Below are positions 2,982 through 63,142 of a stretch of DNA of 64,000 nucleotides, one piece after another; positions within the stretch are counted from its first letter, which is position 1, and each line of letters opens with the position of its first letter. Source of the DNA: Pedosphaera sp. GTDB taxonomy: Bacteria; Verrucomicrobiota; Verrucomicrobiia; Limisphaerales; Pedosphaeraceae. A program made the position numbers and the translations under genes. The notes under the pieces were generated by a model. It saw only the letters and a program-made list of their open reading frames with translations, did not search any database and was not told where the DNA came from. The stretch spans positions 1 to 64,000 of the forward strand of contig JAQGPC010000101.1 of assembly GCA_028293285.1 (NCBI GenBank), given 5' to 3'.

Positions 2982-5381
2982 ATGATAAAAAAAGCAAGCA
3001 TCCTGCTTTGGATTTTACTTTTCGTTCGGATACTTGCGCTACCCCTGTTCGCGGCTGCAAATAAATCCATATCGCCGGAAACGACAATCTGGTTCGACGC
3101 GCCAGCAAACGATTTTACGGAATCATCGCCGATGGGCAACGGACGATTGGGAGCGATGATGTTTGGCGGCGTGGACGGCGAGCGGATTGTGCTGAACGAA
3201 AGTTCCGTTTGGTCCGGCTCACGTCAAGATGCCGACCGCCCGAACGCCTACAAAGAACTGCCCGAAATCCGACGCTTACTGCTCGAAGGAAAAAATCCCG
3301 AGGCCGAGGCCCTGGTAAACGCCAATTTCACCTGCAAAGGACCGGGGTCGGGTGGCGGCCAATATGGATGTTATCAGGTGCTCGGCAATCTGCATTTGAA
3401 TTTTTTGCCAGATCGCACTAATGCGCCTGCGACCGATTATCACCGCGAACTAAATCTCGATGACGCGGTGACCCGTATCTCGTTCAACCGCGGCGGAGTT
3501 GAATTCAGCAGGGAAATGTTTGTCAGTATGCCGGATGAGGTGATGGTGTTGCGCCTGAACGCAAATCAATCCGGCCGGATTTCCTTTGAAGTGAAGCTCG
3601 ACCGCCCGGAGCGTTTTCAAACGGTCGCCGAAGGGCATAATGGATTGCTGATGACCGGACAGCTCGACAACGGGGTGAACGGCAAGGGAGTGCGTTACGC
3701 GGCGCGCGTGCGCTTGTTGAACCGCGGCGGAAAAGTGTCCATCCACGAAAATGTCCTGAGCGTGCGGCAGGCGGATCAGGTCATTTTGCTGATCACCGCC
3801 GCGACGGATTATCAAGGATTCGCGGGACGCCAGGCAAAGGATCCCGAAGCCGTTTCGTTTGAGGATATGAAACGCGCATCGAATAAGTCGTATGCTTCAT
3901 TGCGCAGGGCGCACATCGCGGATTACCGGAAATTTTTTCGACGCGTCGCGCTTCACCTCGGTCCGGACGATTTGCCAGCTTCTCGCAAGTCCACACCCGA
4001 ACGCGTCAAGGCCTTTAAGTCTGGGCTGCCGGATCCCGCGCTGGCCGCGCTGTATTTTAACTTTGGCCGCTACCTTTTGATATCTTCCTCCCGGCCGGGC
4101 GGTTTCCCCGCGAATCTTCAGGGCATTTGGGCCGAGGAGACCAGCACTCCCTGGACCGGAGACTGGCATTTGGATGTCAATGTGGAGATGAATTATTGGC
4201 CTGCCGAAGTCGGCAATCTTTCAGAGCTGACCCAGCCGCTGTTTGCCTTGGTTGATTCGCTACAGGAGCCGGGAACAAAAACTGCGCGCGAGTATTACTC
4301 CGCCCGAGGCTGGGTGGCCCACGTCATCACCAATCCATGGGGTTTCACCTCGCCCGGCGAATCGGCTTCCTGGGGCGCAACTACAGGTGGCTCCGCCTGG
4401 TTATGCCAGCACCTCTATGACCATTATCTATTTACGCTTGATCGCAAATTTCTTCAGTGGGCCTACCCGATTATCAAAGGTTCGGCGCAGTTCCATGCGG
4501 ATATGCTTATTGAAGACCCCAAACATCATTGGCTCGTGGTTGCTCCCGCCTATTCTCCGGAAAATCATTTCCGCATGGCGGATGGCAGAGAGGCCGCAAT
4601 CTCACTCGGAACCACCGTCCACGCTCAAATGCTGCGCTACCTCTTTGGCGCCTGCATTGAAGCGTCCAAAATTCTGGGCGCGGACGAAGAATTTCGGAAG
4701 GAATTGACAGAAAAGCGCACGCGCTTAATGCCCACGCCCATTGGTTCCGACGGGCGAATCATGGAATGGCCGGAGGAATATACGGAACCCGACCCGCATC
4801 ACCGTCATATCTCGCACCTATGGGGGTTGTATCCGGGTGATGAAATCTCGCCGGACACCACTCCCGAGCTGGCCAAAGCCGCCCGCAAGACTTTGGAAGC
4901 CCGGGGCGACGACGGCGTGGGGTGGTCACTGGCGTACAAGGCGGTTCTATGGGCCCGGCTTGGCGACGGCAATCATGCGTGGGCAATTGTGCGTCACGAG
5001 TTAAATCCAGTCGTGACCCACGAAATGAATTACGACACCGGTGGCGGGATTTATCCCAATCTCTTTGACGCCTCCCCGCCATTTCAGATCGATGGAAACT
5101 TCGGCGCGACTGCCGCGATCGGCGAAATGCTGGTTCAAAGCCAGAACGGTGTCATCCGATTGCTGCCTGCGCTCCCGGATGATTGGCGCGAAGGACAGGT
5201 ATCCGGCTTGCGCGCGCGGGGAGGATTTGAAGTGAGCATGCGATGGAATAACGGCCGGTTGACGACGGCCACGATCCGCTCAGAATCTGGCGGAACCTGC
5301 CGCATCAGCTACGGCGGCAAAACCGCGGAATTAAAAATCAAAAAAGGAAGATCGATCACCCTGAACGGCCTTCTAAAGTAA
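2982..5381 (+). CDS. Glycoside hydrolase family 95 (alpha-L-fucosidase-like), secreted
   Basis: 'SSPMGNGRLGAMMFGGVDGERIVLNESSVWSG', 'GGFPANLQGIWAEETSTPWTGDWHLDVNVEMNYWPAEVGNLSEL', 'FQIDGNFGATAAIGEMLVQS' are GH95 motifs. Confidence 0.9.
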   Translation: MIKKASILLWILLFVRILALPLFAAANKSISPETTIWFDAPANDFTESSPMGNGRLGAMMFGGVDGERIVLNESSVWSGSRQDADRPNAYKELPEIRRLLLEGKNPEAEALVNANFTCKGPGSGGGQYGCYQVLGNLHLNFLPDRTNAPATDYHRELNLDDAVTRISFNRGGVEFSREMFVSMPDEVMVLRLNANQSGRISFEVKLDRPERFQTVAEGHNGLLMTGQLDNGVNGKGVRYAARVRLLNRGGKVSIHENVLSVRQADQVILLITAATDYQGFAGRQAKDPEAVSFEDMKRASNKSYASLRRAHIADYRKFFRRVALHLGPDDLPASRKSTPERVKAFKSGLPDPALAALYFNFGRYLLISSSRPGGFPANLQGIWAEETSTPWTGDWHLDVNVEMNYWPAEVGNLSELTQPLFALVDSLQEPGTKTAREYYSARGWVAHVITNPWGFTSPGESASWGATTGGSAWLCQHLYDHYLFTLDRKFLQWAYPIIKGSAQFHADMLIEDPKHHWLVVAPAYSPENHFRMADGREAAISLGTTVHAQMLRYLFGACIEASKILGADEEFRKELTEKRTRLMPTPIGSDGRIMEWPEEYTEPDPHHRHISHLWGLYPGDEISPDTTPELAKAARKTLEARGDDGVGWSLAYKAVLWARLGDGNHAWAIVRHELNPVVTHEMNYDTGGGIYPNLFDASPPFQIDGNFGATAAIGEMLVQSQNGVIRLLPALPDDWREGQVSGLRARGGFEVSMRWNNGRLTTATIRSESGGTCRISYGGKTAELKIKKGRSITLNGLLK

Positions 5382-59230: not shown

Positions 59231-60522
59231 CAGGGCAGACGCATTTAAATCTTTGTGAAGAACTGCGGCGTAAGTGCGACAATTTGGCGCTGTACTTTTG
59301 TGGACCTGTGATTAAATAAGAAGGGATGCAAAAGCATCCTGAAGGACAAACAAACCAGCTGGCAACAAGTAGTCTGGTGGCGCATCTTGCCCGGGTGCCG
59401 GACCCGCGGATCAACCGCAATAAAGACCATGACTTGGTGGACATCCTCGTGATTGCCGTCTGCACGTTGTTGTGCGCGGGAGAGACGTTCAACGACATGG
59501 ATGATTTTGGCCAAGCCAAGCACGCTTGGTTTAAGACCTTCCTCAAACTGCGCAATGGCATTCCCTCGCATGACACTTTCAACCGCGTCTTCGCGGCTTT
59601 GGACCCCGCGCATTTTCTGGATTGTTTTCTGGGTTGGACGCAGAGCGTGCGCGAGGCGGTGGCGCAGGAAGTTGTCGCGCTGGACGGCAAAGCATTGCGG
59701 CGGGCATTGAACCGGGATCAGAGCGTTAAAATACGTGGTCAGCGCCTGGGCGGAAAGCAACGGGCTGGTGCTGGGCCAGTTGAAGGTGGCGGACAAGAGC
59801 AACGAAATCACCGCCGTGCCCGAACTGCTGCGCGTGCTGGAGTTGAGCGGTTGCATTGTGACCCTCGACACGGATGGGCTGCCAGAAGCAGATCGCCAAA
59901 GAGATTGTGGAGGCCGATGCCGACTATGTGCTGGCGCTCAAAGGCAATCAGGAACGGGTGCATGAGGAAATGAAAACCTTTTTGGATCAAACGGTCGCGG
60001 AAATCCAAATCCGCGCCCGCCGGGAGCCAAACTGTCCGGAGCAGCGGCCAGGCTGGCCTGCCTGGAGACGGTGGACAAGGACCACGGACGCTTTGAAATC
60101 CGCCGCTATTATCAGAGCACCGAACTGGCTTGGTTTGCCGACCAGGCAAAATGGGAGGGGCTCCAGTCCGTGGGCCTGGTCGAATCGGTCCGCACAGTGG
60201 CGGGCAAGACCACGGTCGAACGCCGCTACTATCTGTCGAGCCTGCCCCTGGGAGTGGCGACCTTTGCCCGCGCCGTGCGCGGCCGCCATTGGGGTGTTGA
60301 AAACAAACTCCACTGGGTCATGGAGGTTTGCTTCCGCGAGGACCAAAGCCGCGCCCGCACGGGCTACGCAGCGGAAAACCTCGCCACCTTGCGCCGTCTC
60401 GCGCTCAACATGCTTAAACGGGAGAAAACCAAAAAGCGCGGCATCCGAGGCAAACAACTCAACGCCAGCTGGGACCATCCCTATTTGCTCCGCTTACTAG
60501 GAATTTAAATGCGTCTGCCCTG
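59231..60522 (+). mobile_element. ISAs1-family insertion sequence, 1292 bp, transposase frameshifted
   Basis: Perfect 20-bp terminal inverted repeats CAGGGCAGACGCATTTAAAT (59231-59250) and ATTTAAATGCGTCTGCCCTG (60503-60522); transposase pieces in frames of 59326, 59735, 59874 and 60071 ('LARVPDPRINRNKDHDLVDILVIAVCTLLCAGETFNDMDDFG...', 'RRYYLSSLPLGVATFARAVRGRHWGVENKLHWVMEVCFREDQSRARTGYAAENLATLRRLALNMLK'). Confidence 0.93.
59326..60508 (+). pseudogene. ISAs1-type transposase with at least three frame changes
   Basis: Contiguous transposase homology spread over three reading frames. Confidence 0.85.
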
Positions 60523-60569: not shown

Positions 60570-61214
60570 TTGCGCCCCAACACGCTGGTTATGAATTCAT
60601 TTCTAAACCAACATGTGCTGGTGCTCAACCGATTGTGGCAAGCGGTGAACATCTGCACTGCCCGGCGAGCCCTCACCTTGCTATTTGAAGGGCATGCCCA
60701 GGTTGTCCTTGATGCGGAAGATGGTTCATTCCAAACCTTTAGCTTCAGTCAATGGCAGGATTTTTCAGAGCAACAACCACATCCGGAGAGCATTCACACC
60801 ATTTCCTTCAAGATTCGCGTTCCAAGGGTTATTTTGCTGGTAATGTTTGACAGGTTGCCGAAGAAGGAAGTTAAGTTCACCCGCCACAACATTTTCGAAC
60901 GAGACAACAATACTTGTCAGTTTTGCGGCAAGGTATTTGATCGCAAGGATCTTAATCTCGACCATGTCATTCCCCGGGATCGTGGCGGCCCCACCACATG
61001 GGAAAATATTGTCTGCTCTTGCATTCCTTGTAATACACGCAAGGCAAATCATACTCCGCAGGAAGCGGGAATGCATCTCATTCGCAAGCCCAAACGCCCC
61101 AAATGGCGGCCGTTTGTACAAATCAATTTGGGACTGCATCATCACGACAGTTGGAAACATTTTCTGGATCTTGCTTATTGGAATGTCGAGCTTGGTGAAG
61201 ATGTCCAGAAGTGA
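60570..61214 (+). CDS. HNH endonuclease family protein (start may be MNSFLNQHVLVLNRLW)
   Basis: 'NIFERDNNTCQFCGKVFDRKDLNLDHVIPRDRGGPTTWENIVCSCIPCNTRKANHTPQEAGM' with CxxC pairs and HNH core. Confidence 0.92.
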   Translation: MRPNTLVMNSFLNQHVLVLNRLWQAVNICTARRALTLLFEGHAQVVLDAEDGSFQTFSFSQWQDFSEQQPHPESIHTISFKIRVPRVILLVMFDRLPKKEVKFTRHNIFERDNNTCQFCGKVFDRKDLNLDHVIPRDRGGPTTWENIVCSCIPCNTRKANHTPQEAGMHLIRKPKRPKWRPFVQINLGLHHHDSWKHFLDLAYWNVELGEDVQK

Positions 61215-61264: not shown

Positions 61265-61645
61265 CTACGAGTTTACGCCCTTATTTGTCGCACTACGGGC
61301 TGCTTCGATTAATTCCCAAAATTTGGGATTTTTCTGGAGCGCCTCATCTTCCTGGAGCTTCAACCCGGACCGGAAATAAAAATCCTTCAGTGTGTGCCGG
61401 CTGAGAATCCGGTGCACAACCAAACCAAGGTCATGGCGTTCAAAATAGACCCGGTAGTCCCCCACCCGGAACCGGTGCAAGATCCGGCCTGCACGCTCCA
61501 GCTTGCCAAATTCGTCCAGCTCAGTATTCATAACCTGTTGTGGCAGGCCCCTGAATTCTCCCAGGATATTAAGTTGTAACTCCTTGGGCATATGGGCGAG
61601 TTCCGCCGCACTAGTTGGATTAAAAATAATTTGGAACGGGCGCAT
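61265..61645 (-). CDS. RelE/ParE-type toxin-like protein (ATG at 61645)
   Basis: 'MRPFQIIFNPTSAAELAHMPKELQLNILGEFRGLP...GKLERAGRILHRFRVGDYRVYFERHDLGLVVHRILSRHTLKDFYFR' matches the RelE fold motif 'R.R.GDYRV.....'. Confidence 0.75.
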   Translation of the reverse strand: MRPFQIIFNPTSAAELAHMPKELQLNILGEFRGLPQQVMNTELDEFGKLERAGRILHRFRVGDYRVYFERHDLGLVVHRILSRHTLKDFYFRSGLKLQEDEALQKNPKFWELIEAARSATNKGVNS

Positions 61646-61657
61646 GCTGCTTAAAAT

Positions 61658-61732
61658 TGGTAGCGCGTACGGGAATCGCACCCGTCTTTCAGCCTTGAGA
61701 GGGCCGTGTCCTAACTGATAGACGAACGCGCC
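61658..61732 (-). tRNA. tRNA-Glu (anticodon CTC), CCA encoded
   Basis: Reverse complement GGCGCGTTCGTCTATCAGTTAGGACACGGCCCTCTCAAGGCTGAAAGACGGGTGCGATTCCCGTACGCGCTACCA; loop CTCTCAA gives anticodon CTC. Confidence 0.9.
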
Positions 61733-61786
61733 ACACCGATTACACCAAGATGATTAGCAGTAAAGTCTGGCATGTCAATCCTGGTA

Positions 61787-61813
61787 CAAAAAAAAGCCGC
61801 CCTTTCGGGCGGC
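61787..61813 (-). terminator. Rho-independent terminator after the PEP-CTERM gene
   Basis: Minus strand GCCGCCC-GAAA-GGGCGGC followed by T9. Confidence 0.9.
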
Positions 61814-61832
61814 CTGAATAAAATACACTAGC

Positions 61833-62453
61833 TTACTTGCGACGGCGGAAGAGCAGCAATGCTGCAGCACCGAGGCCGCCCAGAGCAATCGTAGAAGGCT
61901 CAGGAACTGGCGAGATGGTCAGACCGGTGAAGGCTGTGCCCAAAGTGCTGGCCGGCGTTTCAGGAGGTGAACCAGCGCCGCCAGTATGGGCGCTGAACAT
62001 GGTTGACACTCCAATGTAGCCAGTACCAGCGGCATAGGCAGCTTCATAGCTCGCGAAGTTACCCGACCAACCTCTTACCTGGAATACTGCATCTCCACTG
62101 GGAGGAGTGCCGTTGCCCGTAACCCAGAGTGCAGTGCCGCCACTAAACCGTCCAGGCAAAGCTGGGCTTAAGCCGCCTACAGAAGTTGTGCCAGTACCGG
62201 TAGCCGCAATCACAACCAGCTGGGCTTCGGTTGAGCCAGTTATGCCCCAATAAAGAGCGACATGAAAGAATGTTGACGCCGCAAGTCCCGTATGACCCTG
62301 GAGATCATTCGTTCTTACGAGGTCGGTGTTATAAGGTGTCGCAGGCGTCGTGTTAGTATTCTGAACGCCGTTGGCGAACTTAATTGTTCCTTGAGCAAAA
62401 ACACTGGCGCTTAAGCCAACTGTCAAGGCTGCTAATAGTATTGCTTTTTTCAT
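61833..62453 (-). CDS. PEP-CTERM sorting-domain secreted protein
   Basis: C-terminus 'PVPEPSTIALGGLGAAALLLFRRRK'; signal peptide at N-terminus. Confidence 0.93.
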   Translation of the reverse strand: MKKAILLAALTVGLSASVFAQGTIKFANGVQNTNTTPATPYNTDLVRTNDLQGHTGLAASTFFHVALYWGITGSTEAQLVVIAATGTGTTSVGGLSPALPGRFSGGTALWVTGNGTPPSGDAVFQVRGWSGNFASYEAAYAAGTGYIGVSTMFSAHTGGAGSPPETPASTLGTAFTGLTISPVPEPSTIALGGLGAAALLLFRRRK

Positions 62454-62476
62454 ATTTTGTAGGTTTGAGATTTATA

Positions 62477-63142
62477 TTACTGGACGTTGAAAGTACGAGT
62501 CCATTTATAGCTGGACGATGTCAGGATGAAGAATGATTCACCAACTGCCAAGACCGGTTCAGTTCCACCATCCCAGAACTCAGCACCAGCAGGAACCGTC
62601 GGCGAAGCGTAGTAGGTGTTAAGGGAGTATTGCCCGTTAGCGAAGGTGTAAACAGTATCCTGATCCTTCACCTGCATACCCAAGGAACTAATCAAGCCAC
62701 CACCCTGAGGCACTTGCGAAGCCTTGATTGAGAAACCATTGGGAATACTGTTGGTCAAATTACCCTGAAGAACTTCACCCGTGAAGGTCAAGGTTTGCGC
62801 GCCAGGACTGTAAATAAAGAAGCCTTCGCCAGGATTAAGAGTCACTGGACCATCCCAAATATTTGCGCCCTGAGCAATGAAAGTAGCGACGGCGCTGTAA
62901 CTATGAGACGCGTTATCGTATTGGTAGACCGTGGTACCATCCAGACAATTGGTCCCGATTGTCGATTCAAGGCTATTACCACTTGCGACATTCAAAGGAT
63001 TTTGAATCAGGCTAAACCCGTTTGCGACTGGAACGTTAACATAACCAACTACGTTCAGTGAGTAAACGTTCGATTGCGCCATGGAGGTGGCGACACCTGC
63101 TGCGGCTAAGGCAGCTGTTACGAGCAATGTTTTTGTTCTCAT
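62477..63142 (-). CDS. Secreted protein of unknown function ('SLNVVGYVNVPVANGFSLIQNPL' type)
   Basis: Signal peptide 'MRTKTLLVTAALAAAGVATSMAQ', complete ORF, 23 nt upstream of PEP-CTERM gene on same strand. Confidence 0.7.
   Translation of the reverse strand: MRTKTLLVTAALAAAGVATSMAQSNVYSLNVVGYVNVPVANGFSLIQNPLNVASGNSLESTIGTNCLDGTTVYQYDNASHSYSAVATFIAQGANIWDGPVTLNPGEGFFIYSPGAQTLTFTGEVLQGNLTNSIPNGFSIKASQVPQGGGLISSLGMQVKDQDTVYTFANGQYSLNTYYASPTVPAGAEFWDGGTEPVLAVGESFFILTSSSYKWTRTFNVQ

Follow-up and report, generated by a model that had tools for sequence, protein, structure and literature searches.

A partner-less RelE-fold core gene of Verrucomicrobiia and its probable expression from a tRNA-Glu transcript in Limisphaerales

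RelE proteins are familiar as toxins that must be paired with an antitoxin. In the window considered here, a stretch of 64,000 nucleotides from Pedosphaera sp. (order Limisphaerales, also known as Verrucomicrobia subdivision 3), a gene for a RelE-like protein begins directly behind tRNA-Glu(CTC) and is accompanied by no antitoxin, raising the questions of how the gene is expressed and what kind of protein it encodes. The original prediction, made from the letters of the window, described it as a solo toxin whose mRNA may be produced by processing of the tRNA 3′-end. The locus contains the following features.

61794..61815, minus strand: predicted intrinsic terminator (sequence prediction, rated good) that closes the PEP-CTERM gene and separates it from the tRNA unit
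61750..61778, minus strand: predicted sigma-70-like promoter of the tRNA-Glu/relE-like unit, TTGACA-N17-AATCAT or TTGACA-N16-TAATCA
61658..61732, minus strand: tRNA-Glu(CTC) with encoded CCA, first cistron (ARAGORN; Rfam RF00005)
61646..61657, minus strand: 12-nt spacer ATTTTAAGCAGC, with no predicted promoter, terminator, or Shine-Dalgarno (SD) sequence (from the sequence)
61265..61645 including the stop codon, minus strand: RelE-fold protein of 126 aa, predicted second cistron, extended at the C-terminus by a region that bears the near-invariant F109-W110 (ORF, alignment, and model)
60570..61214, plus strand: HNH_5 endonuclease gene, convergent, a conserved neighbour lying outside the relE transcript (Pfam-type domain match)

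The proposed order, running from the terminator of the PEP-CTERM gene (Pfam PEP-CTERM) through tRNA-Glu(CTC) and 12 nt to the ATG, is confirmed by ARAGORN, by the ORF coordinates, and by the terminator predicted at 61815-61794. On the minus strand the junction reads ...CGCGCTACCA-ATTTTAAGCAGC-ATG, and 12 nt separate the CCA from the ATG at 61645. The spacer holds no predicted promoter; the sole promoter-like site on the minus strand here lies upstream of the tRNA, at 61778-61750. The stop codon of the relE-like gene is approximately 50 nt from the end of the convergent HNH_5 gene, and the ORF list of the window contains no antitoxin-type ORF on either side. A 138-aa version of the ORF with a GTG start was rejected, since translation would begin within the tRNA and the GTG is not a conserved start. 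The lack of a convincing SD sequence had been noted as well; it is indeed absent, but only 5 of the 40 long ORFs in the window have an SD at their first start, equal to the rate at random positions (12%). Since the ORFs of the window show an SD at the random rate, its absence before the relE-like ORF carries no weight and was rejected as an argument for a tRNA-dependent mRNA, being uninformative in this lineage.

Two further observations concern the flanks. An apparent IS transposase gene, split into overlapping frames, adjoins the HNH gene at 59326-60508 on the plus strand (ORF list). Upstream of the tRNA, positions 61833-63142 on the minus strand hold the PEP-CTERM gene and a second secreted-type gene, a pair that recurs at 33-41% identity in 12 of the 35 genomes in which the relE-like gene is linked to tRNA-Glu and that is apparently an old part of the same block.

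The RelE/ParE-like nature of the protein was examined on a predicted structure. AlphaFold performed poorly on the single sequence (pLDDT 45), and an alignment of 67 sequences was used instead, yielding a model with a pLDDT of 82.4 and a pTM of 0.79. This model is predicted to have the compact RNase-T1-like fold of the RelE/ParE superfamily. In agreement with the original prediction, its top Foldseek matches in the PDB are RelE toxins (probability 1.00, TM by target 0.60-0.68), the best including M. tuberculosis RelE1, T. thermophilus RelE, RelE2, and archaeal RelE. The family profile also matches the archaeal M. jannaschii RelE3 (E 9e-6). Resemblance to the Pfam family PF05016 (ParE_toxin) is weak: 28 of the 32 class members match it at E ≤ 1 (best 5e-6), and the window protein scores 14.6 bits, below the gathering cut-off of 23. 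No curated family was matched above its own cut-off, NCBIfam models gave no convincing match, and PADLOC returned a single weak match, to its CARF-RelE model. The RelE superfamily fold is thus supported by the predicted model.

The alignment with E. coli RelE was read by eye from HMM and family alignments, not by superposition. Read in this way, the key RelE positions are mostly kept or conservatively replaced. R58 and R65 are invariant in the family and align with RelE K54 and R61, respectively. R83 aligns with R81 and is replaced by K in most families outside Limisphaerales, while F89 occupies the position of Y87; the equivalent of K52 is not conserved. In E. coli RelE, activity was lost in the R61A, R81A, and Y87A mutants and almost abolished in the R81A/Y87F double mutant, while K52A, K54A, and Y87F stayed active, the last of these in vitro (PMC2807027). 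Given this residue set and the mutant data, the active site appears compatible with RNA cleavage, which is not proof of it. M. tuberculosis RelE1 cuts 16S rRNA just before the anti-SD (PMC12620021). Relative to RelE toxins of 85-95 aa, the protein carries approximately 25-30 extra C-terminal residues, predicted to form helices at 99-105 and 107-124 and containing the F109-W110 (FW) motif in at least 90% of family members.

The distribution of the gene departs from the solo toxin of the original prediction, which would be an oddity of one genome. In a phylum-wide sample, the gene occurs in 125 of 127 Verrucomicrobiia genomes, essentially always as a single copy; outside the class there are four matches, all marginal at E about 1e-4. 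Among good Limisphaerales genomes it is found in 108 of 111, almost always once. A profile search recovered it at full length from 95 of 96 class genomes at E ≤ 2e-28; the best match outside the class reached 2e-8 over about 80 residues, as expected for an ordinary RelE/ParE protein. In a weakly resolved gene tree of 104 rows, the Limisphaerales proteins form one side of one branch. Pairwise dN lies at about 0.07-0.13, with dS values that exceed 1 or are saturated, and measurable pairs give a dN/dS of 0.03-0.09; so few amino-acid changes in a class-wide single-copy core gene are unlike a patchy toxin-antitoxin (TA) toxin. The absence of an antitoxin extends beyond the window, as neighbour clustering in the other orders of the class found no conserved neighbour and no recurring small ORF. 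Neighbours there differ by clade, for example a TPR protein or alanine racemase (each clade-specific), and the only frequent neighbours in Limisphaerales are tRNA-Glu, HNH_5, and PEP-CTERM-type genes. No relatives were found in viral contigs, which argues against a phage gene. A type II TA toxin is expected to have a cognate antitoxin adjacent in its operon and to be patchy, mobile, and multi-copy. The relE-like gene has no such antitoxin and is not filed as a TA toxin, since it is single-copy, near-universal, and without a recurring small ORF nearby. As judged from the sequences, it is a class-wide, single-copy, vertically inherited core gene without a conserved partner. The literature searches made found no study of this gene or of the tRNA-Glu/relE pair.

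The pairing with tRNA-Glu is likewise conserved in relatives. tRNA-Glu(CTC) lies upstream of the relE-like gene, always on the same strand, in 35 of 71 Limisphaerales genomes, with 25 family labels represented. A second scan, whose set partly overlaps the 71 genomes, found the linkage in 24 of 80 named loci; tRNA linkage is absent from the other orders of the class. Since the adjacency recurs in 35 of the 71 genomes, always upstream and on the same strand, it is not due to chance, and the link is ancient in Limisphaerales. The gap between CCA and ATG measures 4-19 nt in 18 genomes, 29-121 nt in 14, and 576-611 nt in 3, and the shortest spacers are 4 nt (L040) and 7 nt (L080 and L091). At least 17 state changes of the linkage are required on the weakly resolved gene tree. 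Coupling to the tRNA is neither obligatory nor unique, and it is dispensable because about half of the order lacks the linkage. An HNH gene is also found within about 1.5 kb of the relE-like gene in 48 of the 71 genomes, 73-95% identical in most. Adjacency alone is therefore no proof of coupling, because the locus keeps its synteny in any case, including a convergent HNH gene that cannot share the transcript.

The placement of predicted signals bears on whether the two genes share a transcript. A strong sigma-70-like promoter (TTGACA-N16/18-TAnnnT, typically TTGACA-N16-TAGCAT) is predicted just upstream of the tRNA in 33 of the 35 linked genomes; the same pattern occurs in 22 of 710 random 100-nt stretches. 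A strong promoter-like site is absent from all 14 longer spacers (29-121 nt), and no terminator was seen between tRNA-Glu and the relE-like gene in the short spacers. Among unlinked relE-like genes, 7 of 36 have a strong promoter-like site of their own. With one predicted promoter before the tRNA and neither promoter nor terminator before the ORF, the unit has the layout of a tRNA-mRNA dicistron. The simplest reading is probably a single transcript that is split by tRNA 3′ processing. In a fold prediction for a construct with the 4-nt spacer, the tRNA fold remains intact and the start codon unpaired; so short a gap would leave the processed mRNA almost without a leader. In P. acnes, endonucleolytic cleavage a few nt past an encoded CCA has been mapped (PMC3848588). 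The suggestion that expression is tied to transcription and processing of tRNA-Glu is thus very probable from the conserved anatomy, but the link is confined to one order and has been lost in about half of it.

Close spacing of a tRNA and an ORF is not peculiar to this locus. Elsewhere in the genome, a pterin-binding (folP-like) ORF starts 10 nt after tRNA-Arg(TCT) (G000:C29, L137) and secE starts 14 nt after tRNA-Ser(TGA) (G000:C160, L132). Such short gaps of 10-14 nt suggest that tRNA-mRNA dicistrons may be a general habit of this genome. The CTC gene is the only tRNA-Glu gene among the tRNAs checked in the assembly, which is about 93% complete. Dense clusters of 7-8 tRNA genes were observed in G000:C136 (L174) and G000:C308 (L175); these duplicate tRNAs found elsewhere in the assembly and are possibly phage- or element-borne arrays.

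The 3′-end of tRNA-Glu(CTC) also looks like an integration hotspot in Limisphaerales. Locus L182 contains a full tRNA (1122-1196) and a 33-nt copy of its 3′ part (5345-5377), 4.15 kb apart, and fragments of the tRNA 3′-end (30-36 nt copies) lie upstream of the relE-like gene in L180/L215, L219, L236, and L255. In three genomes (G518, G575, and G544), the tRNA is found 3.7-7.3 kb upstream of the relE-like gene on the same strand. No integrase was identified at the split tRNA-Glu loci. A recurrent sequence (ccaatagaatcaa...gtgagttttaa...gtgctaaaaag) follows several of the split tRNAs. The linkage would have been lost in several genomes because insertions at the tRNA 3′-end sever relE from the promoter, while relE survives.

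Taken together, we think it probable that a RelE-fold gene for an RNA or ribosome factor belongs to the core of Verrucomicrobiia and is expressed in Limisphaerales from a tRNA-linked transcript. In this model, the RelE-fold protein would have turned into a housekeeping gene product that has left a TA pair or never belonged to one. RNA polymerase would initiate at the TTGACA/TAnnnT promoter, which lies a few nt before tRNA-Glu(CTC), and transcription, meeting no terminator, would cross the tRNA into relE as the second cistron. Processing of the tRNA 3′-end just past the CCA would then yield an mRNA with a leader of 4-20 nt, to be translated without an SD. We infer this co-transcription and release, together with an action on RNA or the ribosome, from the gene arrangement and the fold. 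As with RelE, binding to the ribosome or to RNA is most likely, and a controlled ribonuclease role is plausible given the surviving active-site set. Toxicity may be avoided through a low level of the protein or through the C-terminal helices acting as a shield. A more specific proposal, that the protein is an antitoxin-free RelE-fold ribonuclease and an undescribed conserved ribosome/RNA-maintenance factor, whose mRNA in Limisphaerales arises through tRNA-Glu maturation so that its level follows tRNA transcription and processing, is rather doubtful.

What the protein does can be read in several ways. A RelE-fold protein that binds RNA or the ribosome without nuclease activity, such as a hibernation, ribosome-assembly, or 30S-binding factor, is a serious possibility that we place a little short of even. 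The gene behaves as a core gene, Phe replaces Y87, the K52 equivalent is not conserved, most families outside the order have K where RelE has R81, and the extra C-terminal region bears the near-invariant FW. However, the invariant R58 and R65 correspond to positions by which RelE holds and cleaves RNA (PMC2807027; PMC12620021), and the K52A and Y87F mutants of RelE still cut. A non-catalytic role is about as likely as a nuclease role. Alternatively, the protein could be a genuine type II toxin with a class-wide antitoxin gene located at another place in the genome: the fold is that of RelE, R61 and K54 have invariant counterparts in R65 and R58, R81 is represented by R/K83, and the change of Y87 to F89 corresponds to a mutation that left E. 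coli RelE active in vitro (PMC2807027). Known RelBE pairs, in contrast, are adjacent and patchy, whereas the relE-like gene is single-copy and near-universal and has no conserved neighbour, making a distant antitoxin improbable. Even less credit is due to the idea that the gene arrived as cargo on a mobile island that inserted at the 3′-end of tRNA-Glu, the gene being what remains of a TA system. tRNA-Glu 3′-ends do serve as integration sites in the order (L182, and the fragments in L180/L215, L219, L236, and L255), but the insertions leave relE on their chromosomal side, and the gene is inherited vertically across the class and is not near tRNA-Glu in other orders; class-wide single-copy orthology largely refutes this origin, which we regard as very improbable.

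The linkage itself could reflect plain synteny, in which tRNA-Glu, the relE-like gene, and HNH merely stayed neighbours, relE is driven by a weak unrecognised signal of its own, and the tRNA has no regulatory meaning. The convergent HNH gene, for which co-transcription is impossible, is retained in 48 genomes against 35 for the tRNA; the PEP-CTERM pair persists upstream in 12, spacers range from 4 to 611 nt, and relE genes survive unlinked, 7 of 36 with a strong promoter-like site. This explanation is nevertheless unlikely, as spacers below 20 nt leave no room for a promoter in 18 of the 35 linked genomes, and the longer spacers (0 of 14) offer no strong promoter-like site and no terminator is seen between the genes. 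A shared transcript that begins before the tRNA is therefore preferred for the linked genomes.

As a RelE-fold gene that nearly every genome carries once and that lacks a partner, it would clearly exemplify the conversion of a toxin fold to a housekeeping role; its class-wide spread includes the group of one sampled genus, probably Akkermansia. It raises the question of how a RelE fold stays harmless without an antitoxin. The core-gene status of an antitoxin-free RelE fold is more surprising than the tRNA link, and it is invisible from the window alone. Limisphaerales also provide a natural experiment, with close relatives that do or do not have a tRNA promoter upstream of the same gene.

Among known systems, the closest are the RelE toxins of type II RelBE pairs (E. 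coli RelE; P. horikoshii and M. jannaschii aRelE; T. thermophilus RelE, 2khe), which the protein resembles in its predicted fold and in the Arg or other basic residues at the sites used for holding and cutting RNA. It differs from them in having no antitoxin gene and in being a single-copy core gene of a whole class, and its product differs in the roughly 25-30 extra C-terminal residues with FW and in the Phe at the Y87 position. M. tuberculosis RelE1 (9g12) is the best Foldseek match in the PDB (E 2e-4, probability 1.00) at 22-25% identity; RelE1 is adjoined by RelB1, whereas the relE-like gene has no such neighbour. The likeness to PF05016 remains weak, with the window member below the cut-off. 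Bacterial tRNA-mRNA dicistrons such as E. coli tRNA-tufB combine a tRNA with a protein gene that follows it in a single transcription unit. The Limisphaerales locus shares this order of tRNA and then protein gene, but here the second cistron encodes a RelE-fold protein and the gap falls to as little as 4 nt.
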